This document shows, piece by piece, positions 1 to 28,930 of a stretch of DNA of 64,000 nucleotides. Source of the DNA: Cellulosimicrobium cellulans. Lineage in GTDB: Bacteria > Actinomycetota > Actinomycetes > Actinomycetales > Cellulomonadaceae. Below the pieces are notes generated by a model that was not told where the DNA came from, searched no databases, and saw only the letters and a list, made by a program, of their open reading frames with translations. A program made the position numbers and the translations under genes. The stretch's first letter is position 1; each line of letters begins with the position of its first letter. The stretch is from positions 2,852,001-2,916,000 of the forward strand of contig NZ_JAFBCN010000001.1 in the NCBI RefSeq assembly GCF_016907755.1, given 5' to 3'.

Positions 1-747
1 GTAGCGGACCTGGTTCGTCGTGACGGTGGTCGCGGGCCCGGCCTCGACCCGCTTCGGCATCCCCGCCGGGTGGCCGATGATCGCGAGCATGTCGCCGACG
101 GCCGGGTTGCCGGTCGCGACGGCGGTGAACCCGTAGGTGTTCCCCGGGTTGCCGCCCACGCGCACGACCGCCATGTCGAGCCCGCCGAGGCGGTACTCGA
201 CGAGCGCGAGGATCGGGAAGCTCACCTCGGTGCGCAGCACCCCGCCAGGGTCCACCTGGTAGAGCACGTTGATGTGCATGCTCGTCGCGATCTGCTGCGG
301 CGTGACGACCTGCATCGAGCCGTTCTGGCGGGGCAGGACCCACCCGTCGGCGCTCTGGTCGAACAGGTGCCCGCACGTGAGCACCAGGTCCGGGGCGATG
401 AGCGTGCCGCTGCCCCAGCGGACGCCGTCGACGTTGCCGGGGTTGGTGAAGACGCCGCCGAGCCCGGTGTTCCACTGCACCTGGACGGCCTGCTTCTGGT
501 GGGCGTTCACGTACGCCTGCGTGACGCCCAGGGTGCCGTCGTACTGCTCGACGGGCTGGGAGTCGTCGGTGGCGCCGCAGATGGACTCGAGCATCTCGGA
601 GTACGTGGGCTCGTCGCCCGCGATGGACTCGAGCGTCAGCGGGATCCGCTCGGGGAGCGGCGGGTAGAGCGCGTCGACGGTGTCCGGCGTCTCCGGCACC
701 TCGCGCCGGGTCGGCTTCCGGGACGTCGACTTCCTGGTTCCAGGCAT
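1..747 (-). CDS. Trypsin-like serine protease, no signal peptide, C-terminus outside window
   Basis: The first 249 residues of a chymotrypsin-fold (S1-type) peptidase are visible; the frame is open to the window edge. The catalytic His lies in LTCGH (His127) and the Asp in GGLDMAVVRV (Asp191). The Ser motif (GDSG) would lie beyond position 1. A GHPAGMPKRV segment around residues 225-234 is the loop that usually precedes it. The start ATG at 747 follows GAGGGGG. The N-terminus (MPGTRKSTSRKPTRRE) is basic but has no hydrophobic core, so no Sec or Tat signal is seen and the enzyme may be cytoplasmic. About 90 residues precede the protease core. Family is fairly sure; substrate unknown. Confidence 0.8.
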   Translation of the reverse strand, partial: MPGTRKSTSRKPTRREVPETPDTVDALYPPLPERIPLTLESIAGDEPTYSEMLESICGATDDSQPVEQYDGTLGVTQAYVNAHQKQAVQVQWNTGLGGVFTNPGNVDGVRWGSGTLIAPDLVLTCGHLFDQSADGWVLPRQNGSMQVVTPQQIATSMHINVLYQVDPGGVLRTEVSFPILALVEYRLGGLDMAVVRVGGNPGNTYGFTAVATGNPAVGDMLAIIGHPAGMPKRVEAGPATTVTTNQVRY

Positions 748-904
748 CGGGTTCCCCCTCGGTTCGGTCCCCCTGCACCTGGAGGGAGGTGGGGGCGGGC
801 CTGCTCGTGCGGGGTGGGAGCGGGTGAAGCACGCGGGTCGAGCGGCCGCCCGCCGAGCGGCCGGAGCGCACCCCGCGACGGCGAGGAGCGCCCCGGCCGA
901 CGCG

Positions 905-1321
905 TCAGCGGCTCGCCACGACGTCGAGCACCCAGGTCACGCCGAACCGGTCCGTGAGCATCCCGTACAGCGGCGCCCAGTCGGACGACGCGAGCGGCGC
1001 GACGACGGTCGCGCCCTCGACGAGCGCGTCCCAGTAGCCGCGGACCTCCTCGACGTCGTCGCCGCGCACGGAGACGAAGAACGGCGCCTCGCCCGGGCTC
1101 CAGGGTCGTCCCGCCGGGACGTCGTAGGCCATCACGCGGAAGCCGCTCGACGCGCTGACCTGACCCCAGACGACGAGGTCGGCCTCGGCCGGGTCCGGCG
1201 CCTGGCCCAGGTCGCCGTACGTGGTGAGGACGAGGTCGCCGCCGAACACGGCGCGGTAGTGCTCGAGCGCGGCGCGGGCGTCGCCGCGGAAGTTGAGGTG
1301 CGGGGTGGTCTGGACGGACAT
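905..1321 (-). CDS. VOC (glyoxalase/PhnB-like) family protein
   Basis: A 138-residue single-domain VOC protein of the PhnB/3-demethylubiquinone-methyltransferase-like group: N-terminal HLNFRGDARAALEHYRAVFGG is the typical opening beta-alpha unit, and the C-terminal DRFGVTWVLDV strand closes it. The start ATG at 1321 has GAAGGAG seven bases upstream; the frame continues open further upstream but without comparable support. It is transcribed away from the WYL regulator at 1459, across an intergenic region with a perfect inverted repeat. These proteins are metal-binding or substrate-binding; no reaction can be assigned. Confidence 0.85.
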   Translation of the reverse strand: MSVQTTPHLNFRGDARAALEHYRAVFGGDLVLTTYGDLGQAPDPAEADLVVWGQVSASSGFRVMAYDVPAGRPWSPGEAPFFVSVRGDDVEEVRGYWDALVEGATVVAPLASSDWAPLYGMLTDRFGVTWVLDVVASR

Positions 1322-1416
1322 GACGTCTCCTTCGGGTCGGTCGTCGGGCCGCGGGTCGCGGTGCCCCGAGCTCCCGGGCTCGCCGCCCGGGCTCATGACG
1401 ACGACTCTCTCCGTCA

Positions 1417-1439
1417 ATGCGGACGGATAGCGTCCGCAT
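1417..1439. promoter_or_regulatory. Perfect inverted repeat, candidate operator of the WYL regulator
   Basis: ATGCGGACG (1417-1425) and CGTCCGCAT (1431-1439) are exact reverse complements separated by GATAG. The site lies between the divergent VOC (start 1321) and regulator (start 1459) genes, 20 bp before the regulator start. Autoregulation plus control of the VOC gene is inferred from layout. Confidence 0.6.
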
Positions 1440-1458
1440 GGTGCGCGAGCATGGGAGC

Positions 1459-2463
1459 ATGACCGAGACGTCGCGCCGGACCCTCCTCCTGCTCGCGCTC
1501 CTCCAGGCGCGCCCGGACCGCACCGGCCCGGAGCTCGCGGACCGGCTCGGCGTCGACCCCCGGACCGTCCGTCGCGACGTCGAGCGCCTGCGCGACCTCG
1601 GCTACCGGGTCGTCGCCACGCGCGGCCGCGACGGCGGGTACCGGCTGGACGCCGGCGCGGAGCTCCCTCCCCTGCTGTTCGACGACGAGCAGGTCGTCGC
1701 GCTCGCCGTGGCGCTGCGCACCGTCGCGGTGAGCGGGACCGGCGACGCGATCGCGGAAGCGTCCGTGCGGGCGCTGACGACCGTGCGCCAGGTGCTGCCC
1801 GCGCGGCTGCGCCACCGGGTCGACGCCGTCGACGTCGCACCGGTCCCCGCCGGCCCCGGTCGTCCCACGCCCGCGGTGGACCTCGACGTGCTGCTCGCGG
1901 TGAGCGCCGCCACGCGACGCCACGAGGTGCTGCGGCTCGACCACGCCGCGCCGGGCTCGGCGGACGAGGGGGACTCCCCGAGTACGCCCGCGGCGCCGCG
2001 CCGGGTGGAGCCGCACTACGTCGTCGTGCGCGACGGCCGCTGGTACCTCCTCGCGTGGGACCTGGGCCGCGACGACTGGCGCACGTTCCGCCTCGACCGG
2101 ACGACGCCGCGCGTCCCGACCGGGCCGCGCTTCACACCCCGCGAGGTGCCGGGCGGGGACGCCGGCGCGTTCGTCGCGGCCCGCTTCGCGGGCAACGAGC
2201 GGGCGCACGCCCCGGGGTGGCCGTGCACGGGGTGGATCGAGCTCGCGGCGCCCGCCTCCGCCGTCGCGCCGTTCGCCGAGGACGGCACGGTCGAGGCGCT
2301 CGGCCCCGACCGGTGCCGGGTCGGGCTGGGCTCGTGGTCCTGGGCCGGGCTCGCCGCGCGCGTCGCGGCGTTCGACGCCGACGTCCTCGCTGCCGGGCCG
2401 GCCGAGCTCGTCACGGCGTGCGCGACCGCGGCGGCACGGCTCGACCTTCTCGGGCAGCGGTAG
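1459..2463 (+). CDS. WYL-domain transcriptional regulator (YafY/DeoR type)
   Basis: A 334-residue protein with an N-terminal winged HTH (residues about 1-60, with VDPRTVRRDVERLRDLGY and the wing GRDGGYRL) and a WYL domain around residues 165-235 (VVVRDGRWYLLAWDLGRDDWRTFRLDR), followed by a WCX-like tail. The start ATG at 1459 is preceded by GGGAG; an in-frame ATG at 1417 lies inside the inverted repeat and is less likely. WYL domains sense ligands, often nucleic acids or small metabolites. Divergent from the VOC gene, which is its probable target. A second pair of this kind lies at 10.65-12.15 kb. Confidence 0.9.
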   Translation: MTETSRRTLLLLALLQARPDRTGPELADRLGVDPRTVRRDVERLRDLGYRVVATRGRDGGYRLDAGAELPPLLFDDEQVVALAVALRTVAVSGTGDAIAEASVRALTTVRQVLPARLRHRVDAVDVAPVPAGPGRPTPAVDLDVLLAVSAATRRHEVLRLDHAAPGSADEGDSPSTPAAPRRVEPHYVVVRDGRWYLLAWDLGRDDWRTFRLDRTTPRVPTGPRFTPREVPGGDAGAFVAARFAGNERAHAPGWPCTGWIELAAPASAVAPFAEDGTVEALGPDRCRVGLGSWSWAGLAARVAAFDADVLAAGPAELVTACATAAARLDLLGQR

Positions 2464-2489
2464 CAGGGCACGTCCGGCGCGCACGTGCG

Positions 2490-3353
2490 TCAGACGCGGG
2501 CGTCCGCCGCGAGGTCCTGCGTGCCGAGCACGCCGAGCAGGCGGATCCGCTCCGCCGCCTCCGTCCCGGGCGCGGCGGTGAGCACGAGCAGGACCTGCTG
2601 CTGGTCCTCGGTGAGCAGCGCCTGGCAGTCGACCTCGATCTCGCCCACCACCGGGTGCACCAGCACCTTGTGGTCGACGAACCGGCGCGCGACCTCCTGC
2701 CGGTCCCACAGCGCGTCGAACTCCGGGCTCGTGCGCCGCAGCTCCCGGGCCAGGCGCCCGGCACGCGAGTCCTGACCGAGCACGGCGACGGCGGAGCGCA
2801 GCCCCGCGACGAGCGCGCGGCCCTGCCGGTCGCGGTCGTCCGCCGGGTAGATCGCGCGGGCCGCCTCGGGGTGGGCGAACCACCGGTAGATCTCGCTGCG
2901 GTCCCAGCCCGAGTACGCCGTCGCGTCGCCGTAGAGCGCACGGGCCAGGTCGTTCTGGGCGAGGGCCTCCCCGAGCGGGTTGAGGATCAGCGCGGGGGTG
3001 TCGCCGAGGCGGTCGAGCACGCGTCGGAGCGCGGGCGCGACGTGGCCGGGATCGGTCGCCCGGTCGGGGACGCCGTGCCCCGCGACCCGGAAGAGGTAGT
3101 CGCGCTCGTCGTCGGACAGGCGCAGCGCCCGCGCGATCGACGCGAGCATCTGCGTGCTGGGCTGCGGACCTCGCTGCTGCTCCAGCCGCGTGTAGTAGTC
3201 CGTCGACATGAGCGCGAGCTGCGCCACCTCCTCGCGGCGCAATCCCGGTGCCCGACGGCGCAGCCCGGGCGGGAGGCCGACGTCGCCCGGCTGCAGCGCC
3301 TCCCGGTGGCGGCGGAGGAAGTCGGCGAGCGCGGCACGGTCCATGCCTCTCAT
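2490..3353 (-). CDS. XRE-family regulator with MmyB-like ligand-binding domain
   Basis: A 287-residue protein. The N-terminal XRE HTH spans about residues 10-85 (RREEVAQLALMSTDYYTRLEQQRG is its core). The C-terminal part (about 105-270) matches the MmyB ligand-binding domain, a PAS-like fold that may bind a fatty-acid-like ligand. The features used are LNPLGEALAQNDLARALYG and the VDHKVLVHPVVGEIEVDC strand pair. The start is either ATG 3353 or ATG 3344; neither has a strong ribosome site. It is divergent from the SDR gene at 3446, a very common actinobacterial pairing, so it probably represses that gene. Confidence 0.88.
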   Translation of the reverse strand: MRGMDRAALADFLRRHREALQPGDVGLPPGLRRRAPGLRREEVAQLALMSTDYYTRLEQQRGPQPSTQMLASIARALRLSDDERDYLFRVAGHGVPDRATDPGHVAPALRRVLDRLGDTPALILNPLGEALAQNDLARALYGDATAYSGWDRSEIYRWFAHPEAARAIYPADDRDRQGRALVAGLRSAVAVLGQDSRAGRLARELRRTSPEFDALWDRQEVARRFVDHKVLVHPVVGEIEVDCQALLTEDQQQVLLVLTAAPGTEAAERIRLLGVLGTQDLAADARV

Positions 3354-3445
3354 CGTCCGGGGTGCGCGGCGCGCGTGCCAGGGATCGCCGGTCCCCCGTT
3401 CGACGGACTCTGCCGCGCCGCCCGCACCGCGCCCAGGATCGAGGC

Positions 3446-4210
3446 ATGGACATCACGAACAGCACCGTCTTCATCCCCGGCGCGACGAGCGGCATCGGCC
3501 TGGCGCTCGCGGTCGCGCTCCACGAGCAGGGCAGCACCGTCGTCGTCGGCGGCCGCCGCGCCGCGCTGCTGGACCAGATCGCGGCCGAGCACCCTGGCCT
3601 CGACACCGTGCGCATCGACACGACCGACCCGGAGAGCATCGCCTCCGCCGCGAAGGAGGTGCTCGAGCGCCACCCCGACCTCGACACGCTCGTCGCCATG
3701 GCGGGCATCATGCGCGCCGAGGACTGGCACCACCCCGAGGGGTTCCTCGACACCGCCGAGGAGATCGTCACGACGAACGTGCTCGGGCCGATCCGCCTCG
3801 TCGGCGCGTTCGTCGAGCACCTGCAGACCCGGCCGCGCGCGACGATCGTCACGGTGTCGTCCGGGCTCGCGTTCGCGCCGCTCGCCGTCACCCCGACGTA
3901 CGACGCGTCCAAGGCCGCGATCCACATGCTCAGCGAGGCGCTGCGCCTCCAGCTCGCGGACACGAGCGTCGACGTCGTCGAGCTCGTCCCTCCGTCCGTC
4001 GCGACCGACCTCATGCCCGGCCAGCGCGAGAGCGCCGTCGCCATGCCGCTCGACGAGTTCGTCACCGAGGTCGTGGACCTGCTGCGCACGCAGCCCGACG
4101 CACCCGAGGTCCTCGTCGAGCGCGTGAAGTTCCTCCGGTACGGCGAGGCGCGCGGCGACTACGACGAGGTCGTGCGCGTGCTCAACGCGTCGGACCCGCA
4201 CGGCCGCTGA
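3446..4210 (+). CDS. SDR-family NAD(P)-dependent oxidoreductase
   Basis: A 254-residue classical-type short-chain dehydrogenase. The nucleotide-binding loop is GATSGIGLALA (residues 12-22). GGRR near 35-38 suggests NADP preference. The catalytic Ser is in VSSG, and the Tyr/Lys are in YDASK. The C-terminal segment has DltE-like character. The start ATG at 3446 follows GGATCGAGG. Substrate is unknown. The divergent MmyB-type regulator upstream is the likely controller. The gene is convergent with the small membrane protein at 4226, with only 15 bp between stops. Confidence 0.9.
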   Translation: MDITNSTVFIPGATSGIGLALAVALHEQGSTVVVGGRRAALLDQIAAEHPGLDTVRIDTTDPESIASAAKEVLERHPDLDTLVAMAGIMRAEDWHHPEGFLDTAEEIVTTNVLGPIRLVGAFVEHLQTRPRATIVTVSSGLAFAPLAVTPTYDASKAAIHMLSEALRLQLADTSVDVVELVPPSVATDLMPGQRESAVAMPLDEFVTEVVDLLRTQPDAPEVLVERVKFLRYGEARGDYDEVVRVLNASDPHGR

Positions 4211-4225
4211 GGCCGGGCGCCGGGC

Positions 4226-4816
4226 TCACCCGGCCAACGACATCACGACGACGCCCACCCCGAGGACCGCGTCCAGCGCGCAGCAGAACTCGGCGAGGGT
4301 CGAGGCGACCACGCGGCGGGCACGCAGGTGGTGCACGTCCCACGCCGCATGTCCGAGGAGCCCGGCGCCCACGACCAGCCCGGCCCACGGCTGCCCGAGC
4401 AGCGCGACGGCCACGGCGGCACCGACGACGACGGCCATCGCCGCCGCCTGCAGCGGCAGGCCCCACCCGGGCCGGACCCTGCCGCGGACCAGCCCGTAGA
4501 CCCCCACCACCACGACGAGCGCGAGCAGCGCCCAGAACGGGTCGAACCCGGGGACGGCGAACCCGACGCCGAGGAGCACGAACGTCAGGCCGAACAGCGG
4601 CCAGGCGGCCGATCTCCGGCCCAGCGCCGCGGCGCCGAGGTAGACGAAGCCCGCCGCGGTGAGCACCTGCGCGACCTGCGCCGGGTCGGACACCCCGAAC
4701 CAGAACGCGGCCGCGAGCGCCGCCCCGAAGGCGATCCCGGCGACGGTCGGCCACCGCGCCGGCCATGCGGACGCCCGGGGCGGCTGCTGGACCGCGGCGT
4801 GCTCGGCGGCGGTCAC
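4226..4816 (-). CDS. Polytopic membrane protein, function unknown
   Basis: A 196-residue protein with about six hydrophobic helices (for example VAGIAFGAALAAAFWFGV and FWALLALVVVVGVYGLV). A conserved-looking HAAWDVHHLRARR segment lies before the last helix, followed by FCCALDAVLG. The start GTG at 4816 overlaps the TGA of the tetR gene (GTGA, 4813-4816), so the two are translationally coupled. I do not recognise a specific family. The position in a TetR operon opposite a drug exporter suggests an envelope or stress role (inference). Confidence 0.7.
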   Translation of the reverse strand: MTAAEHAAVQQPPRASAWPARWPTVAGIAFGAALAAAFWFGVSDPAQVAQVLTAAGFVYLGAAALGRRSAAWPLFGLTFVLLGVGFAVPGFDPFWALLALVVVVGVYGLVRGRVRPGWGLPLQAAAMAVVVGAAVAVALLGQPWAGLVVGAGLLGHAAWDVHHLRARRVVASTLAEFCCALDAVLGVGVVVMSLAG

Positions 4817-5436
4817 GACGTCGCCCCGTCGGGCACGTGCGGGACCGGCTGACCGGGCGGGGTGAAGGCCGCCAGGACGGTCGCGGCGATGGTGGCGGCC
4901 GCGTCGTCGGGCGCGAGGCGACCCGCCTCGATCTCCGCCGCGGCGCCGTGCATCACGCGGTGGAGCGTCCCGACCAGCCACGAGGCGGGCAGGTCCGTCC
5001 GGAACGCCCCGGCCTTGCGGCCCCGCTCGACGAGGCGCTCGACGCGGGTCGCGGGTCGCTCGTGGAGCTCGAGCATCCGCTCGGGCGAGAGGACCTCGGT
5101 CGCCGCGGTCATGAGGGCGCCGATCTGGACGATCGTCAGCCAGCTCTGCCGGACGAGGCGGACCAGCGCCTCGCGCGGGTCGCCGGACAGGTCCAGCGCG
5201 TCGAGCGCCTCGTCGCCCTCCTCGATCGCGCGGGCGACCACGGCGTCGACGAGCTCGGCGCGGCCGGCGAAGTGCCCGTAGAGGGTGACCCTGCCGACGC
5301 CCGCGGCCTTCGCGATCTCCGCGATGCTCGCGTCGGGGTCGCGGCTCAGGCGGACGGCGGCGGCGTCCAGGATCGCCTGGACGTTGCGGCGGGCGTCGGC
5401 CCGCTTGGCCTGGTGCTGGGTGGCGTTGCTCGGCAT
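4813..5436 (-). CDS. TetR/AcrR family transcriptional repressor
   Basis: A 207-residue TetR regulator. The HTH is at about residues 15-60 (SIAEIAKAAGVGRVTLYGHFAGRAELVDAVV region, with the family hallmark GRVTLYGHF), followed by a helical ligand domain. The start ATG at 5436 has a strong GGGAGG. It is divergent from the DHA2 exporter at 5521 with a perfect 16-bp inverted repeat in the 84-bp gap, the classical arrangement for a drug-sensing repressor. It is co-transcribed with the membrane gene downstream. Confidence 0.92.
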   Translation of the reverse strand: MPSNATQHQAKRADARRNVQAILDAAAVRLSRDPDASIAEIAKAAGVGRVTLYGHFAGRAELVDAVVARAIEEGDEALDALDLSGDPREALVRLVRQSWLTIVQIGALMTAATEVLSPERMLELHERPATRVERLVERGRKAGAFRTDLPASWLVGTLHRVMHGAAAEIEAGRLAPDDAAATIAATVLAAFTPPGQPVPHVPDGATS

Positions 5437-5489
5437 GAAGACCTCCCTTGTCGAACACCACTGTACGAGTTAACGTGGCCGCGTCAACC

Positions 5490-5505
5490 CGAACACGCAT
5501 GTTCG
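5490..5505. promoter_or_regulatory. Candidate TetR operator between repressor and exporter
   Basis: CGAACA (5490-5495) and TGTTCG (5500-5505) are perfect inverted arms around CGCA, ending 15 bp before the exporter ATG. A further half-site, GTCGAACA, is at 5450-5457 near the repressor start, and a GTTAAC palindrome is at 5469-5474. Binding here would block both divergent promoters. Confidence 0.65.
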
Positions 5506-5520
5506 ACTTGAGGAGCCGCC

Positions 5521-6978
5521 ATGACGGACCACGACCTGGACGTCGCCAGCCCACGCACGACCCCCGACCCGGCGCGGTGGCGGGTCCTCGCGCTGCTCGG
5601 GACCGCCCAGCTCATGCTCATCCTCGACATCACGGTCGTGACGATCGCGCTCCCGGCGATCGGGGACGACCTCGGGCTCGAGCGCGCCGCGCTCACCTGG
5701 GTCGTGAGCGCGTACACCCTCGCCTTCGGCGGGCTCATGCTGCTCGGCGGCCGGCTCGCGGACCGGTTCGGTTCGCGGCGGCTCGTCCTGACCGGGCTGA
5801 CGATCTTCACGCTCGCCTCGCTCGCGACCGGGCTCGCGACCGGCCCGGCGCTGCTGCTGGCGGGTCGGGTCGCCCAGGGCGTCGGCGCCGCGCTGCTCTC
5901 CCCCGCCGCGCTCTCGGCGGTCGTCACGACGTTCGACGGCGAGGAGCGCAACCGGGCGCTCGGCGTCTGGTCCGCGCTGAGCGGCGGCGGGGCGGCGCTG
6001 GGCGTCCTGCTCGGAGGCCTGCTCACCGGTGGCCCGGGCTGGCCGTGGATCTTCTTCGTCAACGTCCCCCTCGGGCTCGCGCTCCTCGCCGCGCTGCTCC
6101 GGCTCCTCCCTGCGGGTCCCGTCGGCTCCCACCGCCGTCGGCTCGACCTGCTCGGCGCGGCGCTGGTGACCGCGGCGACGGGCTCCGTCCTCTTCGCGCT
6201 CATCGGAGCGGGCGACCGGGGCTGGTCCGACGCCACCACGGTGCTCTGGCTCGTGGCCGGCCTGGTGCTCTACCTCGTGTTCGCGCTGTGGCAGCGCGCA
6301 GCCGCCGCGCCGCTCATGGACCTGCGACTGCTGGTCCGTCGCCCCGTCCGAGCGGGCACGTTCCTCGTCCTCGTGGCGACCGCGCTCATGATCGCCGTGT
6401 TCTTCCTCGGCTCGTTCCTGCTGCAGCGCGTCCATGACCTCGGCCCGATCGCCACCGGGATGCTCTTCCTCCCGGTGGCGGTGGCGACCATGGCCGGGTC
6501 CCAGCTCGCGGGCACGTTCCTCGGGAGGACGGGCGCCCGGGCGATGACGCTCACCGCGGCGCTCGTGGTCGCCGCGGGCCTCGCGCTGCCCGCGCTCGTC
6601 CCCGGGGTCGCCGCCGCCGTCACCGGGATGGTGGTCGGGTCCGCCGGGATCGGCGCGCTCTTCGTCGTGGCGTCGGCCACCGCGCTCGGCCAGGTCGCGC
6701 CGCACGAGGCGGGCATCGCGTCCGGCATCGTGAGCACGTTCCACGAGCTCGGCGCGGCGCTCGGCGCCGCCGTCATCTCGAGCGTCGCGGCGGCAGGCAT
6801 CGCGGACGGCTCGGTCCAGGGGATCGAGGCAGGCTTCGGGTTCGCGGCCGTCGTCGCGCTCGTCACCGGTGCCCTGGCGCTCGCACTCCTCCCGGCGCGG
6901 CGACCGACCACGAGCACCGACCCGGGTACGGACGCCGCCGCGCGGACGGGCGAACCCGGGCCGAGTGACGGTTCGTAG
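5521..6978 (+). CDS. MFS multidrug exporter, DHA2 (EmrB/QacA) type
   Basis: A 485-residue proton-driven exporter. The DHA2 motif is in the first helix (LDITVVTIALPAI, about 36-48), motif A is GGRLADRFGSRR, and motif C-like glycines lie around ALSGGGAALGVLLGG. The length and hydrophobicity fit about 14 membrane helices, with a polar Thr/Asp-rich tail. The start ATG at 5521 follows GAGGAG. It is controlled by the divergent TetR. Substrate not predictable. Confidence 0.9.
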   Translation: MTDHDLDVASPRTTPDPARWRVLALLGTAQLMLILDITVVTIALPAIGDDLGLERAALTWVVSAYTLAFGGLMLLGGRLADRFGSRRLVLTGLTIFTLASLATGLATGPALLLAGRVAQGVGAALLSPAALSAVVTTFDGEERNRALGVWSALSGGGAALGVLLGGLLTGGPGWPWIFFVNVPLGLALLAALLRLLPAGPVGSHRRRLDLLGAALVTAATGSVLFALIGAGDRGWSDATTVLWLVAGLVLYLVFALWQRAAAAPLMDLRLLVRRPVRAGTFLVLVATALMIAVFFLGSFLLQRVHDLGPIATGMLFLPVAVATMAGSQLAGTFLGRTGARAMTLTAALVVAAGLALPALVPGVAAAVTGMVVGSAGIGALFVVASATALGQVAPHEAGIASGIVSTFHELGAALGAAVISSVAAAGIADGSVQGIEAGFGFAAVVALVTGALALALLPARRPTTSTDPGTDAAARTGEPGPSDGS

Positions 6979-7050
6979 GAGCGACGGGCGGGCGACGCCG
7001 GTCCCGCGCGCCGAGGGGTGCCCGGGCGAGAGGGGCGCTCGCGGAGCGGA

Positions 7051-7416
7051 TCAGGCGGTCGCGGCGGCCGGCGCGAGCGTGGCCGCGAGAACCTGCCACC
7101 GCTCGTCGGCGCGCACCCAGAGGCGCGTGTAGACCAACCGCGCGGACACCGCGGTGCCGCCCTGGACCGCCTCCACGGCCGCGACGAGCCGGGTCGCTCC
7201 CGTCGCGACGTCCTCCTGGACGTCGAGCGACTCCTCCTCCAGTCGGGTGATCCGCAGCGCACCCGAGCGGTAGCCCTCCAGGTCGTCCTCCTTGGAGAAG
7301 ACCGACCCGTCCGGGCCGGCGCCGACGCACCGCGGGTGCAGCAACGCGTCCAGGGCCTCGACGTCACCGGCCCGCTGGGCGGCCTGGAGCGCGTGCTCAG
7401 CAGCAAGAAGACTCAT
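7051..7416 (-). CDS. Nuclear transport factor 2-like (SnoaL/DUF4440) protein
   Basis: A 121-residue single-domain alpha+beta-cone protein. EHALQAAQRAGDVEALDALLHP is the N-terminal helix pair of DUF4440, and VSARLVYTRLWVRADERWQVLA is the closing beta strands. The start ATG at 7416 has no obvious ribosome site, so a leaderless mRNA is possible. Such proteins bind small ligands or catalyse isomerisation; no substrate can be assigned. It stands alone between the convergent exporter and the SCO1664 operon. Confidence 0.8.
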   Translation of the reverse strand: MSLLAAEHALQAAQRAGDVEALDALLHPRCVGAGPDGSVFSKEDDLEGYRSGALRITRLEEESLDVQEDVATGATRLVAAVEAVQGGTAVSARLVYTRLWVRADERWQVLAATLAPAAATA

Positions 7417-7466
7417 CGCGCGAGTCTACGCACCCCGACCTGCGGCTCGGCGCGGGGAGACACGCC

Positions 7467-8294
7467 TCAGAACAGCGGCCACGGCACGGCGGGCATGCCC
7501 CCCGTCGGGGCAGGGAACCGCGCCGCGCGCAGCAGCCGGTCGCAGCGCTCGGCGAGGGCGGTCACCTCGTCGGGAGCCAGAAGGTCTGCCAGGCGGCGAC
7601 CGAGGTCGCCGTCGTGGGCGGTCCCGTCGTCGGTGCTCCCGTCGCCGGTACCGAGGCCGGCGCGCACGCGCTCGACGCCCGCGAGCTCGTCGACGTCCAG
7701 GCTCTCTCCGAGCCAGCCCCACAGCACCGTCCGCAGCTTGGGCTCGACGTGGAAGGTGACGCCGTGGTCGACGCCGAGCCGACGTCCGTCGGGCAGCGGC
7801 AGCACGTGCCCGCCCTTGCGGTCGGCGTTGTTCACGATCGCGTCGAACACCGCCATGCGACGCAGCGCCGCCGTGTCCTCGTGGACGACGCTCACCGGAC
7901 GACCCTCGTCGTCGACGCCCTCCAGCACCGTCCGCACGCCGTCCCCCGGCACGTCGCCCGTCGGGACGACGTCGACCGGCGACTGCCCGCCGTCGACCTC
8001 CTGCCAGAGCTGCACCATGCCCGGACCCAGCGGTCCGTCACGCAACCACGTGCGCGGCACGATGCCCCAGCCGAGCATCTCGGACACGACGTACGCGGCG
8101 ACCTCCCGGGACGCCAGCGTGCCGTCCGGGAAGTCCCACAGCGGCTTCTCGCCCGCCACCGGCTTGTACACGACCTCGACCTCGTCGATCCGTGCCAGGA
8201 ACGTCGCGTTGGAGGCGGCGCGGATGCGTCCGACGATGTCGAGCGGCGCGGTGTCGGGCGGCGTCGTGGCGACGTCGTCGTGCGGGGTCGTCAC
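7467..8294 (-). CDS. SCO1664 family protein (conserved actinobacterial)
   Basis: A 275-residue protein of the SCO1664 family, third gene of a conserved actinobacterial trio. It has a phosphatidylinositol-kinase/HipA-like flavour: VVYKPVAGEKPLWDFPDGTL near residue 43, and FDAIVNNADRKGGHVL plus GVDHGVTFH, which resemble the catalytic HxxD/N and DxG region of protein or lipid kinases. The start GTG at 8294 overlaps the stop of the DUF3090 gene (GTGA). Biochemical role undetermined; a kinase-like fold is my inference. Confidence 0.85.
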   Translation of the reverse strand: MTTPHDDVATTPPDTAPLDIVGRIRAASNATFLARIDEVEVVYKPVAGEKPLWDFPDGTLASREVAAYVVSEMLGWGIVPRTWLRDGPLGPGMVQLWQEVDGGQSPVDVVPTGDVPGDGVRTVLEGVDDEGRPVSVVHEDTAALRRMAVFDAIVNNADRKGGHVLPLPDGRRLGVDHGVTFHVEPKLRTVLWGWLGESLDVDELAGVERVRAGLGTGDGSTDDGTAHDGDLGRRLADLLAPDEVTALAERCDRLLRAARFPAPTGGMPAVPWPLF

Positions 8295-8839
8295 GCCTCG
8301 TCGGGCAGCACGCACTCGTGCCCGTCAGGGTCGACCGGAGCACCGCAGCGGGGACAGGCCGGTCGGCCTGCCTGCACGACGGAGCGCGTGCGCTGCGCGA
8401 AGGCGCGGGCCGTCCCGACGGGCATGCGGACGAGGAGCGACTCGGCGGGCTCCGGCTCCGGTGCGTCCGGGTCGAGCTCGTCGTCGTCCACGAGCGGGAA
8501 CGCCTCGACGACCACCTGCGCGGTGCGGGGGTCCCAGCTCAGCCGCATCGACCCGGTGCGGAACTCCTCCTGGACGGGGAGGTCCAGCGGGTCGTCGTCG
8601 ACGAGCTCGGCCGCCACGTCGACGGGGACGCTGAACCGGTTGTCGGGCTGCTCCATGAGCTCGTCGAGCAGGCGCTGGATGGTGTCGGCGAGGACGGCGG
8701 ACTGCTCCTTCTCCAGGGCGACGCTGGTCGTCCGGGTGCCCGTCCGGGCCTGCAGGTAGAAGGTGCGGGAGCCGGGCATCCCGACGGTCCCCACGACGAC
8801 GCGGTCGGGCCAGTCGTGCTCGTGGACGAGAGTGGGCAT
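8291..8839 (-). CDS. DUF3090 family protein with C-terminal zinc-ribbon-like motif
   Basis: A 182-residue member of DUF3090 (Rv2134c-like). The N-terminal part is beta-rich (TFYLQARTGTRTTSVALEKEQ). The last 25 residues carry RPACPRCGAPVDPDGHEC, a CxxC...HxC cluster that could bind zinc. The start ATG is at 8839. It is middle gene of the trio with the phosphatase upstream and SCO1664 downstream. In mycobacteria the same set lies near mshC; function unknown. Confidence 0.88.
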   Translation of the reverse strand: MPTLVHEHDWPDRVVVGTVGMPGSRTFYLQARTGTRTTSVALEKEQSAVLADTIQRLLDELMEQPDNRFSVPVDVAAELVDDDPLDLPVQEEFRTGSMRLSWDPRTAQVVVEAFPLVDDDELDPDAPEPEPAESLLVRMPVGTARAFAQRTRSVVQAGRPACPRCGAPVDPDGHECVLPDEA

Positions 8840-24545: not shown

Positions 24546-25289
24546 ATGACCCGATCCCCTTCGCGCCGACGGCTCGGCCGGCGCGCCGCGCTCGTCGGCG
24601 GCCTGGCGGTCGCCGCGACCGCCCTCACCGTTCCGGCCCACGCCGCGCCGTCCGCCTCTGACGCGACCCTCGACGCGCCGTCGACGGCGGAGGTTGGCAC
24701 CTCCATCACGGTGACCGTCGCGACGACCGGTGCCGTCGACCTCTACGCCTACGACCTGGCCGTCGCCTACGACCCCGACCTCGTCGAGCTCGTCGAGGAC
24801 TCCGCGGTCACGCCCGACGGCGGGTTCTCCGACGTGGTCGACGACGGCGGCGCCGTCGCCGTTGCGCACACGCGGCTCGGCACGTCCCCCGGCCTGGAGG
24901 GAGACGTCACGCTCGTGACGCTCACGTTCACGGCCGTCGCCGACGGCGACGCCCCGTTCACCGTCCCGACGGCCACCCTCGTCGGCGCCGACGCCACGAC
25001 CGCTTCCCTGACCGACCTCGCGTCCGCCACGACGACGATCACGGCCGCCGTGACGGCGCCGCCCACGGACGACCCGACGGACGGCGCGACCTCCCCGACC
25101 CCGGGGGGTGACGACACCACCGCCCCCGGGGCCGACGACGCGTCCGACTCGCCGTCGACCTCGGCGGGCTCGGGCTCGCTCGCCTCGACGGGCGCGAGCG
25201 TCGCCTGGTTCGCGGGCGCCGCGCTGCTCGCCGTCACGGTGGGCGTCGTGATCCTCTGGGCGCGTCGCCGCGCGGTGGCCTCCCGATGA
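24546..25289 (+). CDS. Cell-wall anchored cohesin-domain protein (LASTG sortase motif)
   Basis: A 247-residue secreted protein. The signal peptide is residues 1-33 (cleavage near AHA-AP). One cohesin-like domain spans about 45-160, recognised by TGAVDLYAYDLAVAYDPDLV (the YDP motif) and GDVTLVTLTFTAVADG. A Thr/Pro/Asp-rich spacer follows (170-208), then LASTG at 212-216, a hydrophobic helix and WARRRAVASR. LAxTG is the motif of class E sortases in high-GC actinobacteria. The start ATG at 24546 follows GGAAGGACC. The amidase gene 71 bp downstream carries a dockerin, so this looks like its surface receptor. The 216-bp gap upstream contains no gene. Confidence 0.82.
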   Translation: MTRSPSRRRLGRRAALVGGLAVAATALTVPAHAAPSASDATLDAPSTAEVGTSITVTVATTGAVDLYAYDLAVAYDPDLVELVEDSAVTPDGGFSDVVDDGGAVAVAHTRLGTSPGLEGDVTLVTLTFTAVADGDAPFTVPTATLVGADATTASLTDLASATTTITAAVTAPPTDDPTDGATSPTPGGDDTTAPGADDASDSPSTSAGSGSLASTGASVAWFAGAALLAVTVGVVILWARRRAVASR

Positions 25290-25360
25290 GCGCCGACCCG
25301 ACGGCCGGCGCCCCCGCCGCCGGCGTGCACCGCCGGCCCACCACCACGAAGGAGCAGCCC

Positions 25361-27211
25361 GTGCCCACCAGCCACCGACGAGCCGCAGCGGGCGGGCTCG
25401 CCACGCTCACCGTCGCCGGTCTCGCGCTCGCCGTCGTCGCGGCTCCCGTCGCGACGGCGGCGCCCGCGGCCGCGCCGATCCTCGCGCCGTACTGGACCGA
25501 GCTCGACCTCACGGGCGACGAGCAGGTGACGACCGACGACCTCGCCGTCGTCGCCGCGGCGCTCGGCGCGACGACCGACGACGCCACGTGGGACGACGTC
25601 GCCGCGGCCGACACGGACAGCGACGGCACGATCACCGTCGCGGACCTCGCGGCGGTCTCCCAGCGGATGATCTACGACGACGGGCCGTTCGAGCTCGTCG
25701 AGGCGTCGGTGCTCGACATGCAGGCGGCGATGAACGCCGGGGTCACGTCGTCGGTCGCGATCACCCAGGAGTACCTGGACCGCATCGCGGCCTACGACAC
25801 GACGCTCGTCGACACGGGCGCGGGCGGGCGGCCTCTGCACTCGATCATCACGACGAGCGACGTCGCGCTCGACGCCGCGGCACGCGCGGACGCGGCCCGG
25901 GACGCAGACGGCATGACGAGCCTGCTCCTCGGCGTGCCGGTCGCGGTCAAGGACAACTACGACACGAAGGACATGCCCACCACGGGTGGCTGCGGGTGCT
26001 GGGACGGCAACCGGACGACGACCGACGCGACGATGGTCGACGGGCTGCGCGCCGACGGTGCCGTGGTCCTCGCCAAGGCGAGCCTCGACGAGTTCGCGTT
26101 CGGCTTCGTGTCCGAGTTCTCGGCGTACCAGGACGCGGGGACGAGCACGCTCGTCGCGAGCCCGTACGTCACGAGCCGCACGGCCGGCGGGTCGAGCGGC
26201 GGCACGGGCGCGGCGATCGCCGCCAACCTCGCAGGGCTCGGGTTCGGCACGGACACGGGCGGCTCGATCCGCGTGCCGTCGTCGTACAACCAGCTCGTGG
26301 GCGTGCGACCGACCGTCGGCCTCGCGAGCCGGGACGGGATCGTCCCGCTCGCGCTGAGCCAGGACACCGGCGGGCCCATGGCGCGCAGCGTCCTCGACGC
26401 AGCCGTCGCGCTCGACGCGGTCGTGGGCGTCGATCCCGCGGACCCGGTCACGTCGCGCCAGGAGGGTGAGGTGCCGGCGTCGTACACGCAGTTCCTCGAC
26501 GCGGACGCGCTCGACGGTGCCCGCATCGGCTACGTGCCGTCCATGCTGGGGAGCAACGCCACGACCCTGCGTCTGTGGGCGCAGACGCGGGCCACGCTCG
26601 AGTCGCTCGGCGCCACCGTCGTCGAGGTCGCGCCGCCCACGACGTGGTCGCCCGTGCTGCCGAACGGCTTCGCGAGCGTCCTCAACGAGGGTTCGGGCTC
26701 GACGAACGAGTTCCGGCACGACCTCGACGCCTACGTCGCGAACCACCTCGCACCGCAGGTCGAGGCGCGGACGCTGCAGGGCATCGTCGACTCCGGCCGC
26801 TTCGTCCCCTCGCGGCGCAGCACCTACGTCTCGCGCGCCGCGATCTCCGAGGAGACGTACCTGGCGTGGGCCGGGCCCGACGGCTCGCACACCCGGGTGC
26901 TCGCCGAGGGCAAGGACCTCGTCACCGCGATGCTCGACGACGCCGACCTCGACGCGCTCGTCTACCCCAGCGCGAACCCCTACGGGACGATCGGTACCAA
27001 CCTGCGGCTCAGCCCCAACACGGGCCTCCCTGCCGTGACCGTGCCGATCGGCCAGGCGACCGCGGCCGACGCGACGGTCACAGGAGGCGGCGTCAACCTC
27101 GAGCTGCTCGGCCGCGACTTCGACGAGGGCCCGCTCCTCGGCCTCGCGTTCGCGCTCGAGCAGTCGGTGCACGCGCGCACGTCCCCTGCCCTGTACGGTC
27201 CGCTCGGCTGA
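25361..27211 (+). CDS. Secreted amidase with N-terminal dockerin domain
   Basis: A 616-residue secreted enzyme. The signal peptide is about 1-35. A dockerin-like module at about 47-105 has two calcium-loop repeats: DLTGDEQVTTDD (49-60) and DTDSDGTITVAD (84-95). The amidase-signature domain fills the rest: Lys197 (PVAVKDNYD), GGSSGG (276-281), and nucleophile Ser302 in GTDTGGSIR, so the Ser-cisSer-Lys triad is complete. The start GTG at 25361 follows AAGGAG; an ATG at 25286 overlapping the cohesin stop gives an unlikely long pre-signal. Co-transcription with the cohesin gene is likely, with a strong terminator after it. Amide substrate unknown. Confidence 0.85.
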   Translation: MPTSHRRAAAGGLATLTVAGLALAVVAAPVATAAPAAAPILAPYWTELDLTGDEQVTTDDLAVVAAALGATTDDATWDDVAAADTDSDGTITVADLAAVSQRMIYDDGPFELVEASVLDMQAAMNAGVTSSVAITQEYLDRIAAYDTTLVDTGAGGRPLHSIITTSDVALDAAARADAARDADGMTSLLLGVPVAVKDNYDTKDMPTTGGCGCWDGNRTTTDATMVDGLRADGAVVLAKASLDEFAFGFVSEFSAYQDAGTSTLVASPYVTSRTAGGSSGGTGAAIAANLAGLGFGTDTGGSIRVPSSYNQLVGVRPTVGLASRDGIVPLALSQDTGGPMARSVLDAAVALDAVVGVDPADPVTSRQEGEVPASYTQFLDADALDGARIGYVPSMLGSNATTLRLWAQTRATLESLGATVVEVAPPTTWSPVLPNGFASVLNEGSGSTNEFRHDLDAYVANHLAPQVEARTLQGIVDSGRFVPSRRSTYVSRAAISEETYLAWAGPDGSHTRVLAEGKDLVTAMLDDADLDALVYPSANPYGTIGTNLRLSPNTGLPAVTVPIGQATAADATVTGGGVNLELLGRDFDEGPLLGLAFALEQSVHARTSPALYGPLG

Positions 27212-27243
27212 GGAGGCCATGGCGGCCGGGTGACACGCCGCCC

Positions 27244-27279
27244 GACGGCGGCCGGACCCACGCGGGTCCGGCCGCCGTC
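27244..27279. terminator. Hairpin terminator after the cohesin-amidase pair
   Basis: GACGGCGGCCGGACCC (27244-27259) pairs perfectly with its complement at 27264-27279 around ACGC. There is no T-run, as is common in this group. It separates the amidase gene from the SGNH hydrolase gene. Confidence 0.75.
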
Positions 27280-27361
27280 CGCATCTCGGGGCCGGGCCGG
27301 GGCGAACGGTGCTAGGTTCCCCCTGACACCGCTATCAACCTCAACGCCGAGGGACGCCCGG

Positions 27362-28930
27362 ATGCCGCACACGCACACCCCACCCGACCGCACCACGCGC
27401 GCCCCGCGGCGCGCACGCCGAGCCCTGCTCGCCGCCCTGACGACGCTCGGGCTCGCCCTGACCGGTCTCGGCACGGCCTCCGCCGCCGACGCCCCGGGGC
27501 CTGACGACGCCGGCTGGTTCACGAGCTGGGCGCAGTCGCAGCAGCGCGTCTCCACCAAGAACTTCGACGACCAGTCGATGCGGATGGTCACCCGCCTGAG
27601 CCAGGGCGGGGACGCCGTGCGGATCCGGCTGCAGAACCAGTACGGGGTCGGGCCGGTCGTCATCGACCAGACGTCGCTCGCCCTGAGCGCCGGAGGACCG
27701 GCGATCGTCGCGGGCACCGACCGTGTGCTCACCTTCGGCGGCGCCGAGAGCGTCACGATCCCCGTGGGCGGAGAGGTCTGGAGCGACCCGACGAGCATCG
27801 CCACCGACGACCTGGACGAGGTCGCCGTGACCTTCTACCTCGCCCGGCCGACCGTCGCGAGCCTGCACGACCGCGCGGGCCGCAACAACTACGGCGCCCC
27901 GACCGGGTCGGGCAACCGCAACGCTGAGGTCTCCGGTGCGTCGTTCACCGAGAACCTGCCGTGGACGTACTTCGTCAGCGCGGTCGACGTGTACGACGCG
28001 GACGTCGCGGGCACGATCGTCGCCTACGGGAGCTCCGTCGTCGACGGCGTGGGCAGCGAGAGCTGCGGGCCGGGCTGCGACGCGTTCGGCCAGGACCGCC
28101 GCTGGACCGACGACCTCGCGCGCCGCGTGGCCGCCGAGCTGCCGCCCTCGCAGCAGGTCGCGATCGTCAACGAGGGGATCAGCGGCACGACCTCCTCGCC
28201 CGCGTGCGGGGGCGGCGGGAACGACGGCGTCTCGCGCCTCGAGCGCGACGTCCTCGCCCTGCACGGGGTGACCGGCGTGATCTTCTACTACGGCACCAAC
28301 GACCTCGCGAACGGCTGCACCGACGCGACGATCCTGGCCAGCTACGAGCAGATCTTCGAGCGGCTGCGCGCCGAGGGCATCAGAGTCTTCGTCACTCCCG
28401 TCACCCCGCGCCCCGGGTACACCGCGCTGCAGAACCAGTACCGCCGCGCCGTCAACGACGTCGTGCGCGCGGGCGGCGACTGCGACGGGTCGTGCGACGG
28501 CGTCCTCGACTTCGACGCGGTCCTCCAGGACCCGGCGAACCCCGACTCGATCTACCCGCCCTACGACACCGGCGACGGTGTCCACGCCAACGTCGCCGGG
28601 CAGCAGGCCATCGCCGACTCGATCCCGCTCGACCTCCTCGTCGGCGACCGGCCGTCGGTCGCCACGGACGTCCGCCTGCGCTGCCTCGCCGGCACCCCGT
28701 ACGTCGCGGTCCGCGTCGCCAACACGGACGACGTCGCGCTCGACGTCGACGTCGCGACCGCCTACGGGTCGAGGTCGTTCACCGGCGTGGAGCCCGGGTC
28801 GAGCGCGTACCAGTCGTTCGCCGTGCGGACCACACCGAGCGCCGGCGTCGTGACGGTCACGGCGCGCACGGCGGGAGGCGGGGGCACCGAGCGCGTCGAG
28901 CGGGTCGAGCACGCCGCGCCGGCCTGCTGA
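27362..28930 (+). CDS. Secreted SGNH/GDSL-like hydrolase with C-terminal beta domain
   Basis: A 522-residue secreted esterase-type protein. The signal peptide is about 1-41 (twin arginines in RRARRALL). SGNH blocks: Ser in AYGSSVVDGVG, Gly in NEGISGTTSS, Asn in YYGTNDLANG, and Asp/His in DGVHANVAG. An N-terminal jelly-roll-like region (about 50-210) precedes the catalytic core. A C-terminal module of about 80 residues (RCLAGTPYVAVRVANTDD to the end, closing with Cys) resembles add-on domains of secreted actinobacterial carbohydrate-active enzymes. The start ATG follows GAGGGA. It may deacetylate or cleave polysaccharide esters; substrate unknown. Confidence 0.88.
   Translation: MPHTHTPPDRTTRAPRRARRALLAALTTLGLALTGLGTASAADAPGPDDAGWFTSWAQSQQRVSTKNFDDQSMRMVTRLSQGGDAVRIRLQNQYGVGPVVIDQTSLALSAGGPAIVAGTDRVLTFGGAESVTIPVGGEVWSDPTSIATDDLDEVAVTFYLARPTVASLHDRAGRNNYGAPTGSGNRNAEVSGASFTENLPWTYFVSAVDVYDADVAGTIVAYGSSVVDGVGSESCGPGCDAFGQDRRWTDDLARRVAAELPPSQQVAIVNEGISGTTSSPACGGGGNDGVSRLERDVLALHGVTGVIFYYGTNDLANGCTDATILASYEQIFERLRAEGIRVFVTPVTPRPGYTALQNQYRRAVNDVVRAGGDCDGSCDGVLDFDAVLQDPANPDSIYPPYDTGDGVHANVAGQQAIADSIPLDLLVGDRPSVATDVRLRCLAGTPYVAVRVANTDDVALDVDVATAYGSRSFTGVEPGSSAYQSFAVRTTPSAGVVTVTARTAGGGGTERVERVEHAAPAC

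Follow-up and report, generated by a model that had tools for sequence, protein, structure and literature searches.

A candidate one-to-one cohesin/dockerin-amidase pair in Cellulosimicrobium cellulans and its conservation among actinobacteria

Most knowledge of cohesin-dockerin pairs comes from cellulosomes, in which specificity is obscured by the large numbers of both enzymes and cohesins. Non-cellulosomal cohesins and dockerins are also known, from Clostridium perfringens and Archaeoglobus, and Peer et al. in 2009 reportedly dealt with such non-cellulosomal modules, possibly including some of those considered here. Here we describe a pair encoded in a 64,000-nucleotide stretch of the Cellulosimicrobium cellulans genome (RefSeq assembly GCF_016907755.1, contig NZ_JAFBCN010000001.1, positions 2,852,001 to 2,916,000; the window), in which a gene for a single-cohesin protein is followed by a gene for a dockerin-amidase. 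The pair, from a soil bacterium, appears to be a one-to-one version of cellulosome parts, a wall-anchored socket and an enzyme with the matching, calcium-dependent plug. With one cohesin and one partner, kept in several actinobacterial genera, co-evolution, minimal function and the use in surface display become directly testable.

The closest solved relatives of the C. cellulans cohesin, both in sequence and in fold, are the NagJ cohesin of C. perfringens, with its NagH dockerin (PDB 2OZN), and the X82 cohesins related to it; these too are non-cellulosomal single cohesins, and by VIA-align the same group is also closest, among solved structures, to the C. cellulans dockerin model. The five cohesin proteins of C. 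perfringens also bear glycosidase domains, as mentioned in a passage of PMC12997984, whereas the C. cellulans cohesin protein carries a sorting signal and no enzyme domain, its partner being an amidase-signature enzyme encoded by the next gene. A second comparison is with the anchoring scaffoldins of cellulosomes, those of Ruminococcus being described in part of PMC11557425 as sortase-linked to the wall; as in these, a wall-linked cohesin protein would receive a dockerin, but C. cellulans possesses neither a multi-cohesin scaffoldin nor a dockerin-bearing glycosidase, and only one partner is present in the genome. The non-cellulosomal cohesin of Archaeoglobus fulgidus (PDB 2XDH) is, unlike the one in C. 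cellulans, archaeal. According to a passage in the 2024 survey (PMC11557425), the presence of two cohesins or more in one protein was demanded, hence one-to-one pairs fell outside it. Among the matches listed in the open-licence literature, judged by titles and the starts of abstracts, no paper on an actinobacterial cohesin/dockerin-amidase pair was found.

The features of the locus are as follows (window positions).

24546..25289, + strand: gene 1, secreted single-cohesin protein of 247 aa, with AGGAAGGA upstream
24546..24644, + strand: signal-peptide-like N-terminus of gene 1, residues 1-33, ending ...AHA (by eye, from the translation)
24666..25040, + strand: cohesin domain of protein 1, residues 41-165 (Pfam PF00963, AlphaFold2, PDB fold matches)
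25050..25178, + strand: Pro/Thr/Ser/Asp-rich, fast-evolving stalk of gene 1 (identity and dN/dS, the ratio of nonsynonymous to synonymous substitution rates, among relatives)
25179..25193, + strand: LASTG sorting motif of gene 1 (sequence; NCBIfam models below their cut-offs)
25209..25286, + strand: hydrophobic span and RRR tail of the gene 1 sorting signal (sequence)
25361..27211, + strand: gene 2, secreted dockerin-amidase of 616 aa from GTG, separated from gene 1 by 71 bp, with AAGGAG at 25349-25354
25505..25666, + strand: dockerin domain of protein 2, calcium loops at 25505-25540 and 25610-25645
25760..26791, + strand: amidase-signature catalytic domain, presumed triad K197, S278 and S302 (codons at 25949, 26192 and 26264)
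27244..27279, + strand: perfect hairpin with a 16-bp stem 3' of gene 2, terminator-like, without a T-run

A sequence-only reading of this locus had proposed a cohesin-like domain in the first protein, and Pfam bears this out: residues 41-165 match PF00963 (Cohesin) at 1.6e-9 and 38.5 bits, above the cut-off of 24.1, and at 40 bits in a genome search. The AlphaFold2 model of the region (24645-25049) has a mean per-residue confidence (pLDDT) of 96.2, and the PDB structures that best match it by fold are cohesin entries; the domain is modelled with the cohesin jelly-roll fold. The open frame of gene 2, on the same strand, has its first ATG at 25286 and ends at 27211, and GTG 25361, behind AAGGAG, is the likely start. 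A script choosing the start codon closest to the expected place assigned GTG to 24 of 25 amidase copies in relatives, the exactly corresponding codon in 17, the single copy without a GTG (L045) being cut by a contig end. With this start the two genes are 71 bp apart, reproducing the gap claimed earlier, and the N-termini of both proteins are, by eye, signal-peptide-like, also as claimed.

The paired calcium-binding loops of the predicted dockerin are both intact, with D-T-D-T-D and D-D-D-T-D at loop positions 1, 3, 5, 9 and 12, in agreement with the DxDxDG-type loops first noticed. Asp at loop positions 1 and 12 is diagnostic of type I dockerins, and these residues (D49..D60 and D84..D95) are present in 24/24 sequences of alignment A2, the C. 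cellulans copy included; in alignment A7, the Nocardioides sequence L081 departs from this, with Asn as the first residue of loop 1. The enzyme belongs to the amidase-signature family: PF01425 (Amidase) matches protein 2 at 2e-76 and 258 bits (cut-off 27), and among solved structures the catalytic domain is nearest in sequence to peptide amidase (PDB 1M21 and 5AC3; E 5e-60, residues 108-609), whose chains align from residue 108 onward only, that is, without the dockerin. K197, S278 and S302, which we take to be the Lys/Ser/Ser catalytic triad of the amidase signature, are invariant across the 24 A2 sequences, and peptide amidase has the same residues at the aligned positions. Pfam and NCBIfam scans and PDB sequence comparison of protein 2 gave no match to a peptidoglycan-amidase family, and the substrate is probably a peptide or amino-acid amide.

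The pair stands alone in its genome, a single contig of 4,788,922 bases. A PF00963 search detected one cohesin, and a six-frame PF00404 search detected one dockerin above the cut-off of 22.9 (28 bits), the sole other match, of 15.3 bits, sitting in what is by eye a PKD-type repeat protein. A cellulosome would have several cohesins and several dockerin-bearing glycosidases; here there is one cohesin and one dockerin, the latter on an amidase, and the placement of the pair outside a cellulosome thus stands.

The two modules are present and absent jointly. In a sample of 99 genomes (C. cellulans included; E <= 0.01), the cohesin is encoded in 21 and the dockerin in 24, including all of the 21, with both present in 17/17 genomes of the Cellulosimicrobium genus group. 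One passage of PMC4562250 states that genome data of C. cellulans F16 contain no cohesin or dockerin domain, in contrast to this 17/17, F16 itself being outside the set. Three Cellulomonas genomes are likewise described, in part of PMC3544764, as having neither domain; this is not contradicted here, as these three species are outside the Cellulomonas compared. Across the family sample of 221 genomes, the cohesin is present in 26, spread over 6 of 25 genera, and the dockerin in 28, all 26 cohesin carriers among them. A dockerin-free amidase query, with at most six candidates scored per genome, gave E <= 1e-60 in 27 genomes of this sample, the amidases of the 26 cohesin genomes being 55-100% identical to the query and that of the 27th 37%. 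Fisher's test on the family co-occurrence tables is extreme, but it ignores shared ancestry; at the level of genera with any carrier, it gives 6/6 versus 0/19 (p = 6e-6).

Adjacency of the genes in relatives, on which the sequence-only reading also depended, proved to be widespread. The cohesin and amidase genes lie side by side on the same strand, separated by 29-117 bp, in 23 of the 26 family genomes, the cohesin being first in 20 and the amidase in three (G038, G057, G597); in the other three (G003, G054, G530) the two genes are on different contigs, each at a contig end. A scan of named genomes yielded 30 loci, 24 actinobacterial and six from Paenibacillus, many of them overlapping genomes already counted in the samples. 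Of the 24 actinobacterial loci, 21 have the amidase gene next to the cohesin or fused with it, a count that takes in L067, whose amidase is cut, and L087, whose dockerin is damaged; the remaining three (L076, L086, L088) stop at a contig end. Hosts of the pair include Cellulomonas, Isoptericola, Sanguibacter, Microbacterium, Herbiconiux and Nocardioides; Cellulomonas phragmiteti, avistercoris, telluris and iranensis all possess the cohesin, with the amidase adjacent in all except iranensis, where it is on a separate contig. Ten of the 394 genomes of the class sample encode a cohesin (C. cellulans, one weak sub-cut-off match and eight inspected loci), and a dockerin-amidase adjoins it in seven of the eight, G915 being the exception. 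The phylum sample (396 genomes) contains, besides C. cellulans, three distant cohesins, each part of a very long protein. For the f56 cohesins (G301, G464, G472), encoded in frames of 2,100-2,200 codons, the best dockerin-profile match at the G301 and G472 loci was E 0.6.

Two further observations concern individual records. The fragmented genome G001 possesses two different dockerin-amidase copies (L037 and L046, 76% and 91% identical to C. cellulans), one of them cut by a contig end, a state that perhaps reflects mixed strains. A Cellulosimicrobium-like pair is also carried by a record titled Sphaerisporangium cinnabarinum ATCC 31213 (L071, G010), which is probably mislabelled.

The tails of the cohesin proteins vary among the lineages. 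In alignment A1, every Cellulosimicrobium cohesin ends in LASTG or LATTG with a hydrophobic span, and similar sorting tails are present in Cellulomonas, Microbacterium and Herbiconiux, while seven Nocardioides-type cohesins that are beside or fused to an amidase (L081, L083, L136-L140) and the Isoptericola cohesin possess no C-terminal sorting signal, indicating that the pair is conserved more widely than the anchor. The C-terminus of L081 and L083 is Ig-like (Pfam Big_3_5, below its cut-off), and that of L136-L140 is similar by eye. One informative exception is presented by L083 (Nocardioides sp. zg-DK7169, 4105-6924), in which dockerin, amidase, cohesin and the Ig-like stretch are encoded in one open frame, Pfam finding the amidase and the cohesin, and the dockerin being detected only with the family profile, at 94 bits; this fusion supports a working relation between the two halves. 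Another is L087 (Microbacterium sp. Marseille-Q6648, 5575-8436), whose cohesin frame continues into the amidase frame with no in-frame sorting signal and whose dockerin lacks the second calcium loop, so that both halves look damaged in one genome, although the frame defect could be an assembly error.

In the C. cellulans protein, NCBIfam LAXTG, LAVTG and LPXTG models match the tail of gene 1 below their cut-offs. The single sortase found in the genome with PF04203 is assigned by NCBIfam to class E (232 bits, cut-off 160), and LAXTG is the motif preferred by class E sortases. We consider it probable, at about 0.78, that the pair is a dedicated monovalent module, with one amidase docking, in a calcium-dependent manner, on one wall-held cohesin. 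The gene 1 product would be secreted and attached to the cell wall through LASTG by the class E sortase, its single cohesin displayed outward on a flexible stalk; the gene 2 product would be secreted, its dockerin folding around two calcium ions and docking on the gene 1 cohesin, by which the peptide-amidase-like enzyme would be retained at the cell surface and not lost to the medium. Weighing against docking are the scores of the dockerin, whose fold is less firmly established than that of the cohesin: PF00404 (Dockerin_1) matches the whole protein 2 at 1.6e-4 and 22.3 bits, just below the cut-off that is passed in the genome search, and the AlphaFold2 model has pLDDT 77, its best PDB fold matches being dockerin-containing entries with weak scores. 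These weak scores slightly lower our confidence in docking.

They also provide part of the case for quite a different, improbable explanation, that the calcium loops are a plain EF-hand-like stabilizer of the amidase and the cohesin an adhesin or an orphan module, with no binding between the two: the Pfam score is not only borderline at the protein level but absent for L083 and L087, and calmodulins score highest among PDB sequences with the dockerin profile. However, EF-hands carry Glu at loop position 12, and in all A2 and A7 sequences this position is Asp in both loops; the dockerin model possesses no helix before loop 1, the first 17 Foldseek rows are from dockerin-containing entries, calmodulin appearing first at row 18, and the dockerin is present or absent jointly with the cohesin. 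A contact may also be real and serve mainly in stabilizing, regulating or assembling the enzyme, with the wall anchor added in some lineages. This is unlikely in our opinion, even if the anchorless cohesins of Isoptericola and of the seven Nocardioides-type loci agree with it, as do the Ig-like C-termini of the latter and the presence of both halves in the single chain of L083, since it is opposed by the sorting signals found throughout Cellulosimicrobium and by the similar tails of three further genera. The claim of wall display made for the amidase fits the LASTG motif and the class E sortase of C. cellulans, and does not extend to the lineages devoid of a sorting signal. Least probable is that the cohesin belongs to a larger, cellulosome-like complex, a suspicion once raised by surface protuberances in this group: a part of PMC4562250 speaks of cellulosome-like protuberances in Cellulosimicrobium and its relatives, but the Pfam models find only the one cohesin and the one dockerin above cut-off in the genome, followed by the 15.3-bit match in the PKD-type protein.

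Beyond the monovalent docking module itself, it is conceivable, and so far a tentative proposal, that an obligate pair of one cohesin and one dockerin-enzyme is a self-standing mobile unit, kept or lost together, sometimes transferred together, rearranged or fused, and equipped with either sortase anchors or Ig-like tails. If so, it would be a simple relative of cellulosomes, perhaps a model of their origin, and the fused Nocardioides form, with plug and socket in each chain, could also assemble head to tail, forming chains of the enzyme. Herbiconiux groups with Sanguibacter, across families, in both gene trees, which suggests that the cohesin and amidase genes moved together between these lineages, and the placement of Isoptericola differs between the two trees, a possible sign of partner exchange. 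A parallel is found in Paenibacillus (L090-L095, around 1-7700), where the gene directly upstream of the cohesin has a dockerin-like C-terminus in 6/6 loci (1.6e-12 to 8.5e-5, family profile only). Each of the two cohesin proteins scanned with Pfam (L090, L095) carries three SLH domains; in the upstream proteins (L090, L091, L095), FIVAR accompanies CBM9, polysaccharide-lyase or GH53 domains, its match falling short of the cut-off in L091 and L095. As no Pfam Dockerin_1 match at E <= 0.01 is present in these three upstream proteins, and as two of the enzymes (L091 and L095) contain in addition a cohesin match above cut-off, the parallel is looser than first thought and not strictly one-to-one, which lowers our confidence in the mobile unit.

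When the C. cellulans pair is compared with eight same-genus relatives, dN/dS ranges over 0.30-0.60 in the cohesin domain, 0.16-0.73 in the dockerin, which is short, and 0.12-0.25 in the amidase domain; for the stalk (residues 169-208), compared with the four more distant of these relatives, identity is 0.33-0.51 and dN/dS 0.79-1.08.

Some modules are found without the pair. The G915 cohesin (L142) has no dockerin or amidase match in its inspected flanks, and the amidases of this genome are distant only, the best-scoring one at 35%. Its cohesin loop reads HTALAGAAP versus [HQN][TS]xLGxSP in the paired actinobacterial cohesins, those of L030, L034, L043, L079, L087, L088 and L141 having been missed by the regular expression and read by eye. 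It is possible, from this one case, that the LGxSP part, absent from the unpaired cohesin, points to the binding site. Dockerin matches without a cohesin are present at the order level in G067 and G094. Another, in G051, lies in a short, odd open frame and was rejected as probably due to chance. In G594, which has no cohesin match, a long protein that is protease-like by eye, and is not the paired amidase, ends in the dockerin-like stretch, and the second dockerin match of G597 is in the same type of protein; these C-terminal stretches lie at L123:4374-4511 and L124:4909-5046, in G597 and G594 of one genus.

As to the single terminator proposed to close the pair, the perfect hairpin is present and the 141-nt stretch around it has a folding z of -3.8, but the T-run is missing and a consensus terminator scan 3' of gene 2 found none. 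Following the pair, a GDSL-type lipase gene (27230-28930) has a C-terminal stretch, RCLAG..YVAVR...AYQSF, that resembles, by eye only, the end of a PKD-type frame of 2065 codons (L126) elsewhere in the same genome.
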